The notes under the pieces are model-generated. The model was given only the letters and a program-made list of their open reading frames with translations. It was not told where the DNA came from and made no database searches. A stretch of DNA of 33,100 nt from Schwartzia sp. (in: firmicutes) (lineage in GTDB: Bacteria; Bacillota; Negativicutes; Selenomonadales; Selenomonadaceae): assembly GCA_017444395.1 (NCBI GenBank), contig JAFSWT010000027.1:1-33100 (forward strand). The letters run 5' to 3'. Position 1 is the stretch's first letter. Every line of letters starts with the position of its first letter. Below are positions 1,576-33,100 of the stretch, one piece after another. The translations under genes were made by a program, and so were the position numbers.

Positions 1576-2835
1576 TTACCGGTACCGGGAGAACTTGTCG
1601 ATGATGTCGCCGCTTTCGCGGCAGGCGGTGAAGTCGAGCTGCTTTTCCGTTGCCGCCAGCGTCATATAGATGGGCGGCTCCGGCTGGGGCCCTCGCACCT
1701 CATCCCAGAGGTGCCGGAGGGTTTTGAACTGCTGGTCGCCGGCGTAGCCGTCGCAGATGTAGAGAGTACCGCTGGGGTCGATGTTCCCGTTTCGCAAAGG
1801 GAATCGCCGGCGATAGGCGTGCACATGGCCGTCCATGACCACGTCGATCTTCAGCTCGTCAAAGAGGGGCATGAGGCTTTTGCCTACCGGGTGCAGGACG
1901 GGGCGGCCTTCGTCGTATTCCAGGATGTCCTTGTGCATCAACACGATTTTCCAGGGGCGGCGGGCGGCGGCCATATCGGCCCGAAGCCAGTCCCGCTGCT
2001 CGTTCAGCAGACCCTTCTGCAGGCGTTCCAGCTCGCCCCACTGGGTGTTGAGGACGGCGAAATGGACCGGGCCGTAATCGAAGGAATAGTAGTAACGAGG
2101 GAACCGGGCACTGCGATTGCCCGGGACGTCGAAGTAGTTCAGATAGGCGTAGGGAATCCGGGGCTGCCAGTCGCGGCCGTACACCTCGTGGTTCCCCATG
2201 ACCGGCGCCAGGGCCGCGTTGGCGCCGATGGGATCCAGAGCGTCAAACCAACTGTACCACTGATGATGATCCTCGCCGTTGTCCACCAGGTCGCCGAGCA
2301 GGAGCCAGAGCTCGGCGTCGGGATTTTTCTGCGCCGCGCTCCGGGCCATCCGCCGCCAGGTGTCGTAGTTTCCGGCGCACTGGCTGTCGGAGGCGATGAT
2401 TGCCTTGAAGGAGGTGCCGTTGTCGCTTTGCATCAGGAACCAGCCGGTGGAGAAGCCGCCGCTCTCCACGCGGTATTCGTAGAACTCGCCGGGCTTCATG
2501 CCGGCGAAGCGGACGGTGTAGAGAAAGATGGGGTGGTCGTCATCGGAGAAGGCCGTGACGACGGGAATCAAAGACCGCTCCGACCGCTTCCCGGCCTGAC
2601 GCCAGATGAGGCGGGCACCGGGATCGGAAACGTCGGCGTGCCAGAGGATGACGCGCTCGGTCTTGTTGTCCGCGGTGACGATCTGGCGGACGAAGCGCAT
2701 CGTAGGCCGGACCGGGGCGGCAAAGAGACGCCGCAAAGGCGCCAGCGCGGCGCCTGCCGCCAACAGGAGGGAGCGGGCGCTGATGGTGAGGAAACGCCGC
2801 CGGGAAACCGGGTCGGCGCACAAGGCGGAAAGCAT
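1576..2835 (-). CDS. Tat-exported calcineurin-like metallophosphoesterase, paralogue
   Basis: A 419-residue phosphoesterase, similar throughout to the product of 143-1462. It starts at 2835 behind AAAGGAGT, about 7 bases upstream. The Tat signal is SRRRFLTI followed by a hydrophobic run ending near LFAAP; no clear lipobox is seen, so it is probably released or membrane-anchored rather than a lipoprotein. The N-terminal beta domain (VRQIVTADNKTERVILW) precedes the metallophosphatase core with DSQ, GDLVDNGEDHHQW, GNHE, MHKD and GHVH. The last motif is canonical here, unlike in the neighbour. Tandem duplication is the simple explanation for the pair. It is divergent from purB across a 265-base gap holding both promoters. 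Substrate unknown. Confidence 0.86.
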   Translation of the reverse strand: MLSALCADPVSRRRFLTISARSLLLAAGAALAPLRRLFAAPVRPTMRFVRQIVTADNKTERVILWHADVSDPGARLIWRQAGKRSERSLIPVVTAFSDDDHPIFLYTVRFAGMKPGEFYEYRVESGGFSTGWFLMQSDNGTSFKAIIASDSQCAGNYDTWRRMARSAAQKNPDAELWLLLGDLVDNGEDHHQWYSWFDALDPIGANAALAPVMGNHEVYGRDWQPRIPYAYLNYFDVPGNRSARFPRYYYSFDYGPVHFAVLNTQWGELERLQKGLLNEQRDWLRADMAAARRPWKIVLMHKDILEYDEGRPVLHPVGKSLMPLFDELKIDVVMDGHVHAYRRRFPLRNGNIDPSGTLYICDGYAGDQQFKTLRHLWDEVRGPQPEPPIYMTLAATEKQLDFTACRESGDIIDKFSRYR

Positions 2836-29331: not shown

Positions 29332-29391
29332 CAAAGGAAGCGCAATTTCACTGTCGCCTCTTCGCCGCTGGCGAAAATCCCGAATTTGTAT

Positions 29392-29397
29392 TATAAT
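29392..29397 (+). promoter_or_regulatory. -10 element before clpX
   Basis: A perfect TATAAT 34 bases before the clpX start, with no convincing -35 at the right distance. No hairpin terminator for putP is evident in this 99-base gap, so read-through is possible. Confidence 0.4.
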
Positions 29398-29430
29398 GAT
29401 AGAGGACTCTAAAGAAAAGGAAGGAACACC

Positions 29431-30744
29431 ATGGCAAAAAACACGCCGGTTCAGCACGTCTGCAGCTTCTGCAAGCGGCTCATCACCATCCGCGACCAGT
29501 ACGACCTGCCGATTTTCGACCCGCAATCGGGCTTCGCAATCTGCAAGAGCTGCATCAAGGACATCTACCGTTTCCTGGAGGAGCATGACCAAAACGTCGA
29601 GCAGAAGCACAAGAAGAATTTTGCCGCTTCGCTGGACGCCGCGCTGGAAAAGAACAAGCCCCATATCATCAAGGAATACCTCGACCAGTACATCATCGAG
29701 CAGGACCGGGCAAAGAAGGTCCTGGCGGTGGCGGTCTATAACCACTACAAGCGCATGAAGTACGGCTACGAGACCCAGCCGGGCGAGACGGAAATCGAGA
29801 AATCCAACGTCATCATGCTGGGCCCCTCGGGCTGCGGCAAGACGGCGCTGCTGTCGCATCTCTCCACGATGCTCGACATCCCCTTCGCCGTCACCGACGC
29901 CTCCAGCCTCACCGAGGCCGGCTTCGTCGGCGCCGACGTCGAGGTGGCGGTTCGCAATCTCTACTACGCCGCCGACAAAGACATCGAGCGCACGGAGCAC
30001 GGCATCATCTACCTTGACGAATTCGACAAGATTGCCCGCAAATCCGGCGAGAACAACTCCATCACCGCCGACCCCGGCCATGAGGGTGTCCAGCAGGCGC
30101 TGCTCAAGATGCTGGAAGGCAGCCAGGTGGAATTCACGGCCCGGGGCCAGCGCAAACACCCCGAAGCGCCCACCATCAAGGTCAATACCCAGAACATCCT
30201 GTTCATCGTCGGCGGCGCCTTCGTGGGCATCGACGACGTAATCGCCAAACGGCTCCAGAAGTCCGACGCCAACATCGGCTTCGGCGCCAAAGTGGAAGGC
30301 GAGAAGGACAAGGCGAAATACGACGAGCTCATCCGTCAGGTGAACCCGGAGGATTTGATGAAGTACGGCATCATCCCGGAAATCATCGGCCGCCTCCCCA
30401 TCATCTGCACCCTGGAAACCCTGGACGAGAACGCCCTGCTGCGCATCCTGACGGAACCGATAAACGCGCCGGTCCGCCAGTACCAGAAACTCCTGGCCAT
30501 GGACCACGTCAAGCTGGAGTTTGAGGATGCGGCGCTGCGGGCCGTGGCGAAGAAGGCCATCGAGCGCAAGACCGGCGCCCGCAGCCTCAAAGGCATCATC
30601 GAAGACGTGATGCTCGACGTCATGTTCGACATCCCGCGCTCCGCCGAGCCGCGCCGGGTGACCATCACCGAGGCCTGCATCACCGAGGGCGCCCGCCCCG
30701 AGGTCGAGTTACTGGAAGAAGACGAGGAAAGCTGGTCGGCATAA
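29431..30744 (+). CDS. clpX: ClpX-type AAA+ unfoldase, divergent form
   Basis: An ATP-dependent unfoldase, probably delivering substrates to ClpP. The start ATG 29431 follows AAGGAAGGA. It has 437 residues. An N-terminal zinc domain has Cys11/Cys14 and Cys38/Cys41; the spacing of 23 residues between pairs exceeds the usual 18. Walker A is GPSGCGKT (131-138), Walker B IIYLDEFD (192-199), the RKH loop 241-243, and the IGF loop for ClpP docking 282-284. The sensor-2 motif KTGARSLKG has Arg384. The pore-1 loop is GFVG (164-167) instead of GYVG. It stands alone, without tig or clpP, so it may be a paralogue beside a canonical clpX elsewhere. Confidence 0.9.
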   Translation: MAKNTPVQHVCSFCKRLITIRDQYDLPIFDPQSGFAICKSCIKDIYRFLEEHDQNVEQKHKKNFAASLDAALEKNKPHIIKEYLDQYIIEQDRAKKVLAVAVYNHYKRMKYGYETQPGETEIEKSNVIMLGPSGCGKTALLSHLSTMLDIPFAVTDASSLTEAGFVGADVEVAVRNLYYAADKDIERTEHGIIYLDEFDKIARKSGENNSITADPGHEGVQQALLKMLEGSQVEFTARGQRKHPEAPTIKVNTQNILFIVGGAFVGIDDVIAKRLQKSDANIGFGAKVEGEKDKAKYDELIRQVNPEDLMKYGIIPEIIGRLPIICTLETLDENALLRILTEPINAPVRQYQKLLAMDHVKLEFEDAALRAVAKKAIERKTGARSLKGIIEDVMLDVMFDIPRSAEPRRVTITEACITEGARPEVELLEEDEESWSA

Positions 30745-30755
30745 AAACAGAAAAA

Positions 30756-30833
30756 GGCTGATAAAATACAGGCGGTTTTGCTGCCCGTGACGATGCGTCC
30801 GGGTAAGCAAAACCGCCTGTTTTATTATCAGCC
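30756..30833 (+). terminator. long hairpin terminator after clpX
   Basis: A stem of about 27 bp: the left arm 30756-30782 begins GGCTGATAAAATACAGGCGG and the right arm 30806-30833 ends TTTTATTATCAGCC, with one or two bulges. An inner CCCG/CGGG extends it. It begins 12 bases after the clpX stop and is unusually long and nearly symmetric. Confidence 0.75.
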
Positions 30834-30866
30834 CAAAGCAATCACGCCCTCCCGGAGGGGGCTTTG
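30834..30866. terminator. second hairpin next to the clpX terminator
   Basis: CAAAGC (30834-30839) with GCTTTG (30861-30866) encloses CCCTCC (30847-30852) with GGAGGG (30854-30859). The T-run is weak. It abuts the clpX terminator and precedes the TA promoter region. Confidence 0.4.
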
Positions 30867-30883
30867 TCATGGCATTGAGGCCG

Positions 30884-30949
30884 GCTTCATGATGCATTGC
30901 TCCCTTCGCCGAGGTTTGACTTTTGGGGAAACGAAAGGTATGATAGAGG
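30884..30949 (+). repeat. shared TA promoter region, copy 1
   Basis: Aligns without gaps to 32271-32336 (constant offset 1387). The last 49 bases match at about 38 positions. It begins with GCTTC(A/C)TGATGCA and includes the whole promoter. The two copies precede unrelated toxin-antitoxin modules. Confidence 0.7.
30916..30944 (+). promoter_or_regulatory. promoter of the YoeB-type TA module
   Basis: TTGACT (30916-30921), 17 bases, then TATGAT (30939-30944), about 40 bases before the antitoxin start. Nearly identical to the promoter at 32303-32331. Confidence 0.75.
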
Positions 30950-30982
30950 AAACGAAGTGGATATGGACAAGGAGATGATTTT

Positions 30983-31228
30983 ATGGAACTCGCGCTGTCC
31001 TTCAGCGACGCCGACGCCGCCCGCATCAAACACTATGCGGCGAAAAAGAATATGAATGTCCTCGACTATGCGAAACGCGCGGTGATGAAACCCATCGAAG
31101 AGGAAGATTCGCTTGCCGCACAAAACGCCGCGTATGCGGCAAAGATTGAAGAGAGCCGCAAGCAGTTTGCCGAGGGGCGGTTTGTGACAAAAACCTGGGA
31201 GGAGTTGGCGCAGCTTGCCCATGAATAA
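30983..31228 (+). CDS. ribbon-helix-helix/RelB-like antitoxin
   Basis: An 81-residue protein preceding a YoeB-type toxin. The start ATG 30983 has AAGGAG about 8 bases upstream. The N-terminal half (MELALSFSDADAARIKHYAAKKNMNVLDYAKRAV, written here only in outline) has the beta-strand then two-helix pattern of ribbon-helix-helix DNA-binding proteins. The acidic, helical C-terminal half (EESRKQFAEGRFVTKTWEEL) would wrap the toxin. Known antitoxins of this kind neutralise the toxin and repress their own promoter. Its stop overlaps the toxin start by 8 bases. The RHH family rather than the Phd/YefM fold usual for yoeB partners is an inference from the N-terminus. Confidence 0.82.
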   Translation: MELALSFSDADAARIKHYAAKKNMNVLDYAKRAVMKPIEEEDSLAAQNAAYAAKIEESRKQFAEGRFVTKTWEELAQLAHE

Positions 31229-31481
31229 GCAATTCTCCGACCAGACATGGCAAGAGCTTGTGGAATGGGTGCATGAGGACCGCAAAACCGTAGACAAGAT
31301 TTATGACTTGCTTCGCGACATCGAAAGAAACGGCGCCTCAAAAGGGATGGGCAAGCCCGAATATTTGAAGCATTTGCGGGCATGGAGCCGTCGCATCGAT
31401 CAAAAGAACCGACTGCTTTACGAGGTAGACGGCGACAATCTCATGATACATTCCTGCAAAGGCCATTATGGCGACAAGTAA
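31221..31481 (+). CDS. yoeB: Txe/YoeB family toxin (mRNA interferase)
   Basis: An 86-residue ribosome-dependent mRNA endonuclease homologue. ATG 31221 aligns exactly with the E. coli YoeB N-terminus (second conserved Trp at residue 10). TTG 31215 is better spaced from AGGAG and remains possible. The pattern SDQTWQELVEW, KGMGKPEYLKHL, AWSRRIDQKNRLLYEV and SCKGHY matches the family. Glu47, Arg64 and His82 fall at the positions of the E. coli catalytic residues Glu46, Arg65 and His83. The toxin therefore looks intact and active. It is translationally coupled to the upstream antitoxin and closed by a terminator 10 bases downstream. Confidence 0.93.
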   Translation: MNKQFSDQTWQELVEWVHEDRKTVDKIYDLLRDIERNGASKGMGKPEYLKHLRAWSRRIDQKNRLLYEVDGDNLMIHSCKGHYGDK

Positions 31482-31490
31482 GAAAGGTCC

Positions 31491-31515
31491 GCCCCGCATA
31501 CGCGGTGCATTTTTT
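31491..31515 (+). terminator. terminator of the YoeB module
   Basis: GCCCCGC (31491-31497) and GCGGTGC (31502-31508) form a stem with one mismatch and a 4-base loop, followed by ATTTTTT. It starts 10 bases after the toxin stop. Confidence 0.7.
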
Positions 31516-31534
31516 ATTCTCTTTTCCGCCGGAG

Positions 31535-31561
31535 CATCAAAGCTGGCTCTGCCAGCCTCCC
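31535..31561. repeat. TA tail repeat, copy 1
   Basis: CATCAAAG, four variable bases, then CTCTGCCAGCCTCCC. It lies 20 bases after the end of the terminator T-run. The same 23 fixed bases recur at 33040-33066 after the BrnT/BrnA terminator. In this copy the variable bases create a small hairpin (GCTGGC/GCCAGC). Confidence 0.75.
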
Positions 31562-31572
31562 AGCGAAAATCC

Positions 31573-31935
31573 TCACAGCATAAACATCACACTCACCCCG
31601 CCGGTGAAGCCTCTTTTTTTGCCGGCGAAGGCGGAGAGGTTGAGGTCGAGGGTTATGGGGGAGTTGTCGCCCGGTTTCATGGTGGCGCCGATCTCGCCGC
31701 GCAGACTGCCGCCGCTGGTGTCGGCGCCTTCGATGGCGTAGCCGTCGGCTTTGCCGGTGGCTTTGCCGTCGAGTTCGTGCTCGTAGGCGAGGCCGCCGTA
31801 GAAGCTCCACTTGTCCCGCTTCACCGTGTACCTGGCGCCGAGGCGGAGCACCTGGCTCGTCACGGCGTCGAGGTCGTAGTGACCGCCGGCGTCGAAGCTG
31901 ACGCCGCGACGGCGGTTGAAGTAGTATTTGCCGGA
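31573..31935 (-). pseudogene. autotransporter beta-barrel C-terminal remnant
   Basis: On the minus strand about 120 codons read as the end of an autotransporter outer-membrane barrel: YYFNRRRGVSFDAGGHYDLD, LRLGARYTV, WSFYGGLAYEHELDGKATG, GEIGATMKPG, LDLNLSAFAGKKRGFTGG, then the terminal VSVMFML. Alternating hydrophobic strands and the closing strand fit the family, although most members end in Phe. A full barrel has about 250-300 residues and follows a large passenger. Here the homology stops near 31935 and the frame continues to 32046 as unrelated sequence. With no passenger, start or signal peptide it is a 5'-truncated remnant. It shows that the lineage has an outer membrane. Confidence 0.8.
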
Positions 31936-31938
31936 ACG

Positions 31939-32171
31939 CCGGATATTTCCATTGACGGCGTGCTGTGGGAGATCAAGTCTCCTACCGGAAACAGCAGGCA
32001 TACGATGAAGCATACGCTTCAGAAGGCAGCGCATCAATCCAATCATGTTATCGTGGATTTAAGGAGATGCCGCAAGACGGCGCTGCCAAGGAACTTGCGC
32101 ACCATTTCAACTTGTCAAGGCGAATCCGCCGCATGATAATTATTACCGCCGATGAACCAAAAAATCATTGA
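31939..32171 (+). pseudogene. CdiA-type nuclease toxin C-terminal remnant, frameshifted
   Basis: The plus strand reads PDISIDGVLWEIKSPTGNS, then TMKHTLQKAAHQSNHVIVDLRR, and after a frame change near 32059-32068 continues MPQDGAAKELAHHFNL, then RRIRRMIIITADE, stopping at 32171. This is the pattern of the tRNA-nuclease C-terminal domains (BECR fold) found at the ends of CdiA contact-dependent inhibition proteins and some phage MuF toxins: a D-G-x-x-x-E/D-x-K core, a helix, the DLRR strand and a final hydrophobic strand. The two halves are in frames differing by one base. There is no N-terminal part and no immunity gene. It starts 3 bases from the barrel remnant on the other strand. Confidence 0.65.
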
Positions 32172-32206
32172 CTTTGCGAAATAAGAGGTTTACTATAGTA
32201 TTACAA

Positions 32207-32251
32207 GGTGCGGACCGGCGTTGAATATGCGCGGGGGCCGCACCATTTTTT
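32207..32251 (+). terminator. terminator after the nuclease remnant
   Basis: GGTGCGG (32207-32213) pairs with CCGCACC (32238-32244), followed by ATTTTTT. The loop is 24 bases. A small perfect palindrome TACTATAGTA lies just upstream at 32191-32200. Confidence 0.7.
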
Positions 32252-32270
32252 GTCCCCCCGTGATGGTTCC

Positions 32271-32336
32271 GCTTCCTGATGCACGGATCCTTTCGCGGCA
32301 GTTTGACTTTCGGGGTGGAAATAGGTATGATAGAGG
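32271..32336 (+). repeat. shared TA promoter region, copy 2
   Basis: The second copy of the 66-base segment at 30884-30949, at constant offset without gaps. Conserved blocks are GCTTC(A/C)TGATGCA, TTTGACTTT(T/C)GGGG and AGGTATGATAGAGG. Confidence 0.7.
32303..32331 (+). promoter_or_regulatory. promoter of the BrnT/BrnA module
   Basis: TTGACT (32303-32308), 17 bases, then TATGAT (32326-32331), 22 bases before the GTG start of brnT. Confidence 0.75.
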
Positions 32337-32353
32337 TATGAGGTGAATTATAG

Positions 32354-32647
32354 GTGCGAAAGATTATTTTTGACCGTGTTTTTGAATGGGACGATGAGAA
32401 GGAAAAGCTGAATGACAAAAAGCATGGCGTAGACTTCGATACAGCAGCGCGGGTATTTTTCGACGCCCATCATCTTGAATATCCTGATGAATTCCATAGC
32501 GACGAGGAAGAACGGTATATCGTCCTGGGCATGGTACGAAATGTTCTTTTTGTCGTCTGCACCGACCGGGGCGATACAACGCGCATCATATCCGCAAGAA
32601 AGGCAACTGCCAAAGAGAGGAGAGCTTATTATGGCAATCGTGCGTAA
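32354..32647 (+). CDS. brnT: BrnT family toxin (RelE-fold ribonuclease)
   Basis: A 97-residue BrnT-like toxin. It starts at GTG 32354 with GAGGTGA about 8 bases upstream. The family pattern is clear: FEWDDEKEKLNDKKHGVDF, then AARVFFDAHHLEYPDEFHSDEEERY, VLGMVRNVLFVVCTDRGD, and IISARKATAKERRAYY. BrnT toxins are RelE-fold RNases that inhibit translation and are neutralised by BrnA. The toxin-first gene order is typical of this family. The downstream antitoxin start lies inside its last codons (17-base overlap), so synthesis of the two is coupled. Nothing looks truncated. Confidence 0.92.
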   Translation: MRKIIFDRVFEWDDEKEKLNDKKHGVDFDTAARVFFDAHHLEYPDEFHSDEEERYIVLGMVRNVLFVVCTDRGDTTRIISARKATAKERRAYYGNRA

Positions 32648-32954
32648 ATTTATCCGAGCGGACAAACCGCTGACTCCTGAACAGCTTGAAAAACTCAACG
32701 CCTTGGAAAACCGGCCTATCGTTTTTGATGAAGACTGCCCCGAGCTGACGGACGAGCAGCTTGACAAGATAGCCGCCATGGCGCGGAAGCGCGACGCCGA
32801 GGAGGCGCGGGCGAAGGAACTTCATCTTCAACCGTTGCCGCTCAACGTCCTGCCCTCTACTATCCGCGCCGCCGAGAAGTATGGCGCCGCCGTCATGGGC
32901 CGCCTTTTGGATCTGGCGGTGCAGGACGAGGCCATGATCAAGAAGTGCCTGTGA
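32631..32954 (+). CDS. BrnA-like antitoxin
   Basis: A 107-residue protein directly after and overlapping brnT. The start ATG 32631 follows AGAGAGGAGAG; an open frame runs further upstream but is inside brnT. The N-terminal half (LTPEQLEKLNALENRPIVFDEDCPELTDEQLDKIAAMA in outline) has the acidic, toxin-binding character and the ELTDEQ motif seen in BrnA proteins. The C-terminal half (VLPSTIRAAEKYGAAVMGRLLDLAV) does not show an obvious ribbon-helix-helix domain, so DNA binding and autoregulation are uncertain. Identification rests mainly on position beside brnT. Confidence 0.75.
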   Translation: MAIVRKFIRADKPLTPEQLEKLNALENRPIVFDEDCPELTDEQLDKIAAMARKRDAEEARAKELHLQPLPLNVLPSTIRAAEKYGAAVMGRLLDLAVQDEAMIKKCL

Positions 32955-32972
32955 TACAACTGCCTATTGTTT

Positions 32973-33020
32973 CCCCGCCTCCGCCACATGCCAGTGACAT
33001 GTTGCGCGCGGGGCTTTTTT
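32973..33020 (+). terminator. terminator of the BrnT/BrnA module
   Basis: CCCCGC (32973-32978) pairs with GCGGGG (33007-33012), followed by a run of seven T. The loop has an inner ACATG/CATGT stem. It starts 19 bases after the antitoxin stop. Confidence 0.75.
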
Positions 33021-33039
33021 TCGCGCTTATATCGCTGGG

Positions 33040-33066
33040 ACATCAAAGATTACTCTGCCAGCCTCC
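33040..33066. repeat. TA tail repeat, copy 2
   Basis: CATCAAAG, four variable bases, CTCTGCCAGCCTCCC, 20 bases after the terminator T-run, exactly as in copy 1. The final 34 bases of the window hold AAGGAG and an ATG, but the frame stops after two codons, so no gene is called. Confidence 0.75.
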
Positions 33067-33100
33067 CGGATCGCCGGAAGGAGACCACTGCATGATATAG

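Follow-up and report, generated by a model that had tools for sequence, protein, structure and literature searches.

The window analysed here is a 33,100-nucleotide stretch from Schwartzia sp. that makes up an entire contig, C113; the draft genome to which it belongs comprises 2.29 Mb in 163 contigs and is 79% complete. To the right of clpX (29431-30744, named by eye and via its relatives), two predicted toxin-antitoxin (TA) modules of different families lie in succession on the forward strand. The first consists of an 81-residue DUF6290/RelB-like antitoxin gene (30983-31228; PF19807, E 1.2e-5, just under cut-off; RelB model NF046040, E 5.9e-5, under cut-off) and a YoeB toxin gene (31221-31481; PF06769, E 7.2e-23, 80.9 bits against a cut-off of 27; TIGR02116, 65.8 against 51.8). 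In the second, a BrnT toxin gene (32354-32647; PF04365, E 3.6e-26, 91.7 bits against 34.5) precedes a BrnA-like antitoxin gene (32631-32954), which is named by position, with no BrnA match in Pfam or NCBIfam at the thresholds used; a similar pair of brnT and second gene occurs in a genome of another genus (G166). The opposite gene order of the two modules had been recognized in a first-pass annotation, which also noted a common 66-bp block upstream and a common 27-bp tail downstream and proposed a cassette with conserved ends and exchangeable cargo. The results below suggest that the upstream block is a promoter spacer that probably traveled with the modules, and that the tail belongs to an unrelated dispersed repeat.

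A promoter spacer shared by different TA families

The two upstream blocks (copy 1, 30884-30949; copy 2, 32271-32336; both forward strand) align without gaps at an offset of 1387, exactly as first described, with 51 of 66 positions identical. Elsewhere in the window (30801-32400 excluded), the best ungapped match to copy 1 reached 31/66 on the forward strand and 32/66 on the reverse strand, and a whole-genome search with copy 1 recovered copy 2 at E 2.1e-8. Each block contains a predicted promoter core, TTGACT-17-TATGAT, recognized by sequence pattern at 30916-30944 for the YoeB module (hexamers at 30916-30921 and 30939-30944) and at 32303-32331 for brnTA (32303-32308 and 32326-32331). A core-based pattern allowing up to three mismatches identified four forward sites in this genome, with none in reverse orientation and none in the control. 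All four precede TA operons, namely, the window YoeB operon (YoeB1), the BrnT operon, a YoeB paralogue on contig C21 (YoeB2, toxin 65% identical to that of the window) and a UPF0175 plus DUF3368 pair on contig C8 (PF03683, E 7.5e-17; PF11848, E 2.3e-7).

Among 189 genomes of the family, this one included, four carry the core with at most two mismatches: the present genome (four sites), G166 (before its BrnT/BrnA operon), G064 and G035. When the 68 regions upstream of BrnT and YoeB genes in the family were considered (duplicates included), five had at most two mismatches, three of them from this genome and two from G166, and the same regions read backward gave none under eight. Pairwise alignment scores among the YoeB1, YoeB2, BrnT and G166 BrnT spacers ranged from 50 to 116 (six comparisons), while five TA promoters compared with seven non-TA promoters of like -35/-10 style (five from this genome, two from others) scored 13 to 34 (35 comparisons). 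The YoeB1-BrnT pair scored 59, against no more than 23 in 300 shuffles, and the identity extends upstream of the core (25 of 40 positions). By these comparisons, the four upstream blocks are a homologous spacer, to which the UPF0175/DUF3368 copy may be more weakly related.

A BLAST search of 60 genomes (own included) with spacer copy 2 found a single match beyond the genome of origin, 29 bases long and located in G003; it was judged to be chance (E 0.004, inside an open frame). The exact promoter pattern had no match in a collection of 84,980 species genomes, from which the present genome may have been left out, and a similar pattern had none in viral contigs.

Direct repeats resembling operators overlie the shared core, yet differ between the two kinds of module. 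In the YoeB modules, GGAAACGAA occurs twice, 21 bp apart, across the -10 element (30927-30956, forward strand; also in the C21 paralogue). In brnTA, AGGTATGA occurs twice, 11 bp apart, again across the -10 element (32323-32341, forward strand), and G166 has AGGTATGA/AGGCATGA. These are plausible candidate operators for autoregulation by each antitoxin; if such module-specific autoregulation holds, one promoter could serve different modules.

Just left of spacer copy 2, inspection by eye showed a promoter-like TTGACT...TACTAT with a GC-rich hairpin and then a T run behind it (approximately 32168-32253), which may be a small RNA or what remains of a leader. An Rfam scan of 30700-33100 gave no match at gathering score, and the sole match reported, to a microRNA family, was rejected as far under its gathering score.

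The downstream tail is part of a dispersed repeat

The tail pair is real, with 24 of 27 positions matching between 31535-31561 and 33041-33067 (offset 1506). The second copy had originally been placed one base too far left; 33040-33066 gives 6/27. With this coordinate corrected, each tail does begin, as reported, 20 positions past the last T of its terminator, the T runs ending at 31515 and 33021.

These tails are not confined to the modules. The sequence CTCTGCCAGCCTCCC occurs exactly eight times in the genome, and a 91-base reference copy of the repeat yielded 44 matches at E <=1, a count of matches rather than of separate copies, because certain copies were hit in more than one piece. Four of the matches, at three places, lie beside YoeB1, BrnT and the C21 YoeB2, and the other 40 are elsewhere. 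Thirty of the matches were returned as loci, and 16 of these are no more than 600 bases from the end of a contig, as expected of a repeat that breaks assemblies. A tblastn comparison of eight toxin and antitoxin proteins with the 30 loci, restricted to those TA families, found relatives at two, one being C21 itself and the other a third YoeB approximately 1 kb from its repeat. In 59 other genomes, the repeat was found as 11 matches in a genome of the same genus (G001) and two matches in each of two others. Given many scattered copies in this genome and few other genomes with the repeat, the tail is best described, from its sequence distribution, as part of an independent, lineage-specific repeat belonging to neither module.

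In a set of 29 copies compared, the majority of those that are full run on past the tail as CCTCCCAGNGAGGGAGGTGGC...GCCGGAAGGAGACC. Tail copy 1 (31535-31566, forward strand; 31541-31566 matches the repeat family) is a truncated start of the repeat, which is intergenic, and, by eye, is broken off mid-hairpin at its junction with an autotransporter relic. Tail copy 2 (33041-33095, forward strand; pieces 33053-33070 and 33073-33095) is an internally altered copy that extends toward the end of the contig (33100) and, by eye, has lost its middle. The tail was also considered as the terminal repeat of an element and rejected, because copies are scattered, none was found in the 600 bases after brnTA in G166 and homology between related modules stops earlier. 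As separate observations by eye, short palindromes, among them TGACATGCCAGTGGCATGTCA, sit between and within the dispersed repeats (e.g., at C17:11745-11914), and a relative, ACATGCCAGTGACATGT, lies in the brnA terminator region (approximately 32987-33003).

An empty site and the unit of movement

In G001, clpX is followed by a convergent autotransporter-like gene with no YoeB module between them. In blastn against G001 contig C232, window positions 29379-30866 and 31571-31936 are both 91% identical and match 4 bases apart, so that a segment of approximately 704 bases (30867-31570, right edge uncertain within 31561-31570), comprising the YoeB module, its spacer and the tail, is present here and absent there. 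A presence/absence difference at the proposed boundaries is therefore borne out by this one genome of the same genus, the breakpoints (30866 and approximately 31571) falling within 20 bases of the ends first proposed. Across 12 clpX loci (up to 1.5 kb on each side, mostly other genera), the YoeB module was present only in this genome, and an autotransporter C-terminus only in this genome and G001. Judged from these remote outgroups, gain here appears more likely than loss in G001.

The homology shared by related modules gives a second view of what moves. YoeB paralogues are homologous over 30898-31517, and brnTA and its G166 counterpart over 32280-32954; both blocks begin within the 66 bp, stop at a terminator or stop codon and leave out the tail, suggesting that the module is the promoter spacer plus the operon and that the tail lies outside it. 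The proposed cassette is in this sense partly supported: its left flank is homologous between families and recurs before TA operons, suggesting a module that can move along with its promoter spacer. Its right flank, in contrast, is a genome-wide repeat, leaving no demonstrated element with two matched ends. The search of both flanks that had been recommended divides in the same way, with the spacer core before TA operons at all four of its sites in this genome and the tail mostly elsewhere.

Autotransporter-like adhesin genes as neighbors

The G166 spacer is flanked on one side by brnTA and on the other by a divergent autotransporter-like gene of 1169 residues. The C-terminus of this gene shares 68% identity over 117 residues (E 2e-51) with a relic in the window (31573-31926, reverse strand). 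This relic, apparently an autotransporter beta-domain C-terminus (PF03797, E 5.6e-6), and the G001 gene match the beta-domain profile; the last 655 residues of the G166 gene had no Pfam match at E 0.001. The gene starts read AAAGGAGCAATGCAATATGAAAAAA in G166 and AAAGGAGCAATGCAGCATGAAAAAG in G001, and spacer copy 1 reads GAAGGGAGCAATGCATCATGAAGCC on the opposite strand, with leaders of AAAGGAGCAATGCANNATGAA in G166 and G001 and GGGAGCAATGCATCATGAA in copy 1. From this likeness of leaders, the best reading of the outer portion of the 66-bp block is a relic of the ribosome-binding site and start codon of a divergent adhesin gene, the inner portion being the predicted promoter. In G001, a copy of the dispersed repeat lies upstream of the autotransporter-like gene, and a search for BrnT gave no match. 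Adhesin neighbors of TA modules recur among the loci described here.

Several further features were noted in these neighborhoods. A CdiA C-terminal domain fragment (31930-32136, forward strand; PF18451, E 3.6e-12) adjoins the autotransporter relic, making the gap between the modules a patchwork of pieces of secreted-protein genes. A plasmid search with 30745-33100 returned one record, a Selenomonas ruminantium plasmid (69% identity, 10% of the query), over the relic. On contig C73 (approximately 1981-2115, minus strand; L129), a DUF6290-like and YafQ-like pair lies, by eye, directly upstream of an autotransporter-like gene on the same strand, and the C21 YoeB2 module (L113, 5323 onwards) is followed by a gene encoding a TPS secretion domain. 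In G166, an in-frame TAG interrupts brnT close to its beginning (L115, 2348-2350, minus strand), and this copy looks broken.

Interpretation and alternatives

The explanation considered probable, with reasonable confidence, is that recombination brought type II TA modules, along with their promoter spacer, into a degenerate adhesin locus, the tail being an unrelated dispersed repeat. On this view, the 66-bp block corresponds to the spacer found in the related genus between brnTA and a divergent adhesin gene, serving as ribosome-binding site and start on one side and TA promoter on the other. In the lineage of the window, the adhesin gene would have decayed and the spacer of brnTA would have been retained. 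Between clpX and the 3′ end of the adhesin gene, a YoeB operon bearing a copy of that spacer would have been gained; the presence/absence difference at this site is observed, with gain as its probable direction. Different families may have come to share the spacer through recombination in the spacer itself or in nearby dispersed repeats, a step for which no dedicated enzyme would be needed, and each operon is probably autoregulated by its own operator repeats over the shared core.

Several observations weigh against this explanation. Two other BrnT operons (C155 and C73) and one YoeB operon (C88) in the same genome have at least 10 mismatches to the core throughout their 500 upstream bases and thus lack it. 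Most relatives are without the spacer (63 of the 68 upstream regions exceed two mismatches), as are all ten named BrnT relatives (best 8 to 13 mismatches), and the cores in G064 and G035 (two mismatches each) precede non-TA genes, by eye ribF and a tadA-like region. Against the G035 promoter, scores of 30 to 34 (z 6.5 to 8.0) were obtained for four of the five TA promoters, indicating that promoter style alone gives some likeness, and the UPF0175 promoter scores 36 to 42 with the other four, its 36 with G166 standing beside a shuffle maximum of 35. Presence/absence comes from one same-genus genome, with gain and loss not separated directly, and the draft genome is fragmented, the window's right edge (33100) coinciding with the contig end.

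A bolder version, tentative and rather unlikely, holds that adhesin loci are exchange points at which unrelated TA operons are swapped beneath one inherited spacer, the promoter core being the unit of descent and the operators having evolved anew. Such swapping, if general, would account for the spread of small modules that have no mobility genes, and regulator cross-talk between modules would become testable.

A single regulator controlling several TA operons through the shared core would account for the finding that four of four core sites precede TA operons of three kinds. Such a promoter regulon is quite unlikely, given that the operator-like repeats differ between the YoeB and BrnT modules and that the BrnT (C155, C73) and YoeB (C88) operons do without the core.

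Convergence, whereby strong sigma-70-type promoters of this genome resemble one another and the upstream match does not reflect common descent, is very unlikely. The broader class TTGAC-N15..17-GGTATRATA does have nine sites in this genome, five of which precede non-TA features (by eye, the ffh region, a tRNA, a DedA-like gene, a peptidase-like gene and a leader), and promoter style thus accounts for part of the likeness; in the UPF0175 promoter, little outside the core is shared, and the non-TA G035 promoter reaches a score of 34. The YoeB1-BrnT identity upstream of the core, together with a score above the maxima of both the shuffles (23) and the non-TA promoters (34), argues against this, and convergence is disfavored for the YoeB1, YoeB2 and BrnT spacers, with UPF0175 outside this verdict.

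A previously undescribed element of cassette type, bounded on the left by the 66-bp block and on the right by the tail and exchanging TA cargo, is highly improbable: two spacer-tail pairs do enclose different cargo, the YoeB unit is present or absent at nearly those ends and the C21 YoeB paralogue has a repeat-family copy approximately 65 bases past its stop, but at C21 the part of the repeat corresponding to the tail is missing, 40 of 44 repeat matches lie away from the YoeB1, BrnT and C21 modules, no tail was found within 600 bases after brnTA in G166, at best 11 of 15 bases of the tail core follow the C8 UPF0175 module, the homology of related modules ends before the tail, and no recombinase or transposase was seen by eye among the open reading frames of the stretch, no profile search having been aimed at one.

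With modules that probably moved along with their promoter spacer, the locus offers a case in which a matched pair of flanks arose from two unrelated causes. It would also be a concrete example of TA operons of different families inheriting one promoter, with an empty site in a sister genome and an adhesin-linked spacer in another genus.

Comparison with known systems

Gain and loss of chromosomal TA modules in intergenic regions are common, and the YoeB module resembles such modules in being a small module present or absent between relatives at one intergenic site; it differs in that its spacer is homologous to that of a different, adjacent module. Titles and abstract openings searched, with few subscription journals covered, describe no autotransporter-linked, promoter-sharing or cleanly inserted TA modules of this arrangement. 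The tail family resembles REP/MITE-like dispersed hairpin repeats in being short, multicopy, often at contig ends and, by eye, hairpin-forming, but the region scanned gave no Rfam match at gathering score.

The usual antitoxin partner of Txe/YoeB toxins is of the YefM/Phd type. The YoeB module shares with these type II systems an antitoxin gene placed first, an overlapping toxin gene and a toxin above the PF06769 and TIGR02116 cut-offs. It differs in its promoter, which is common to a BrnT operon, and in its DUF6290/RelB-like partner, which scores under curated cut-offs; no Phd/YefM profile was listed for this partner in the profile searches, which gave weak DUF6290 and RelB matches instead. 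Likewise, the second module agrees with BrnT/BrnA systems in having the toxin gene first and a BrnT profile match, and departs from them in a spacer common to YoeB modules and a second gene without a BrnA profile match at the thresholds used. Overall, both modules look like ordinary type II TA operons, each with a predicted sigma-70-type promoter, that were shuffled by recombination rather than carried by a new mobile element.

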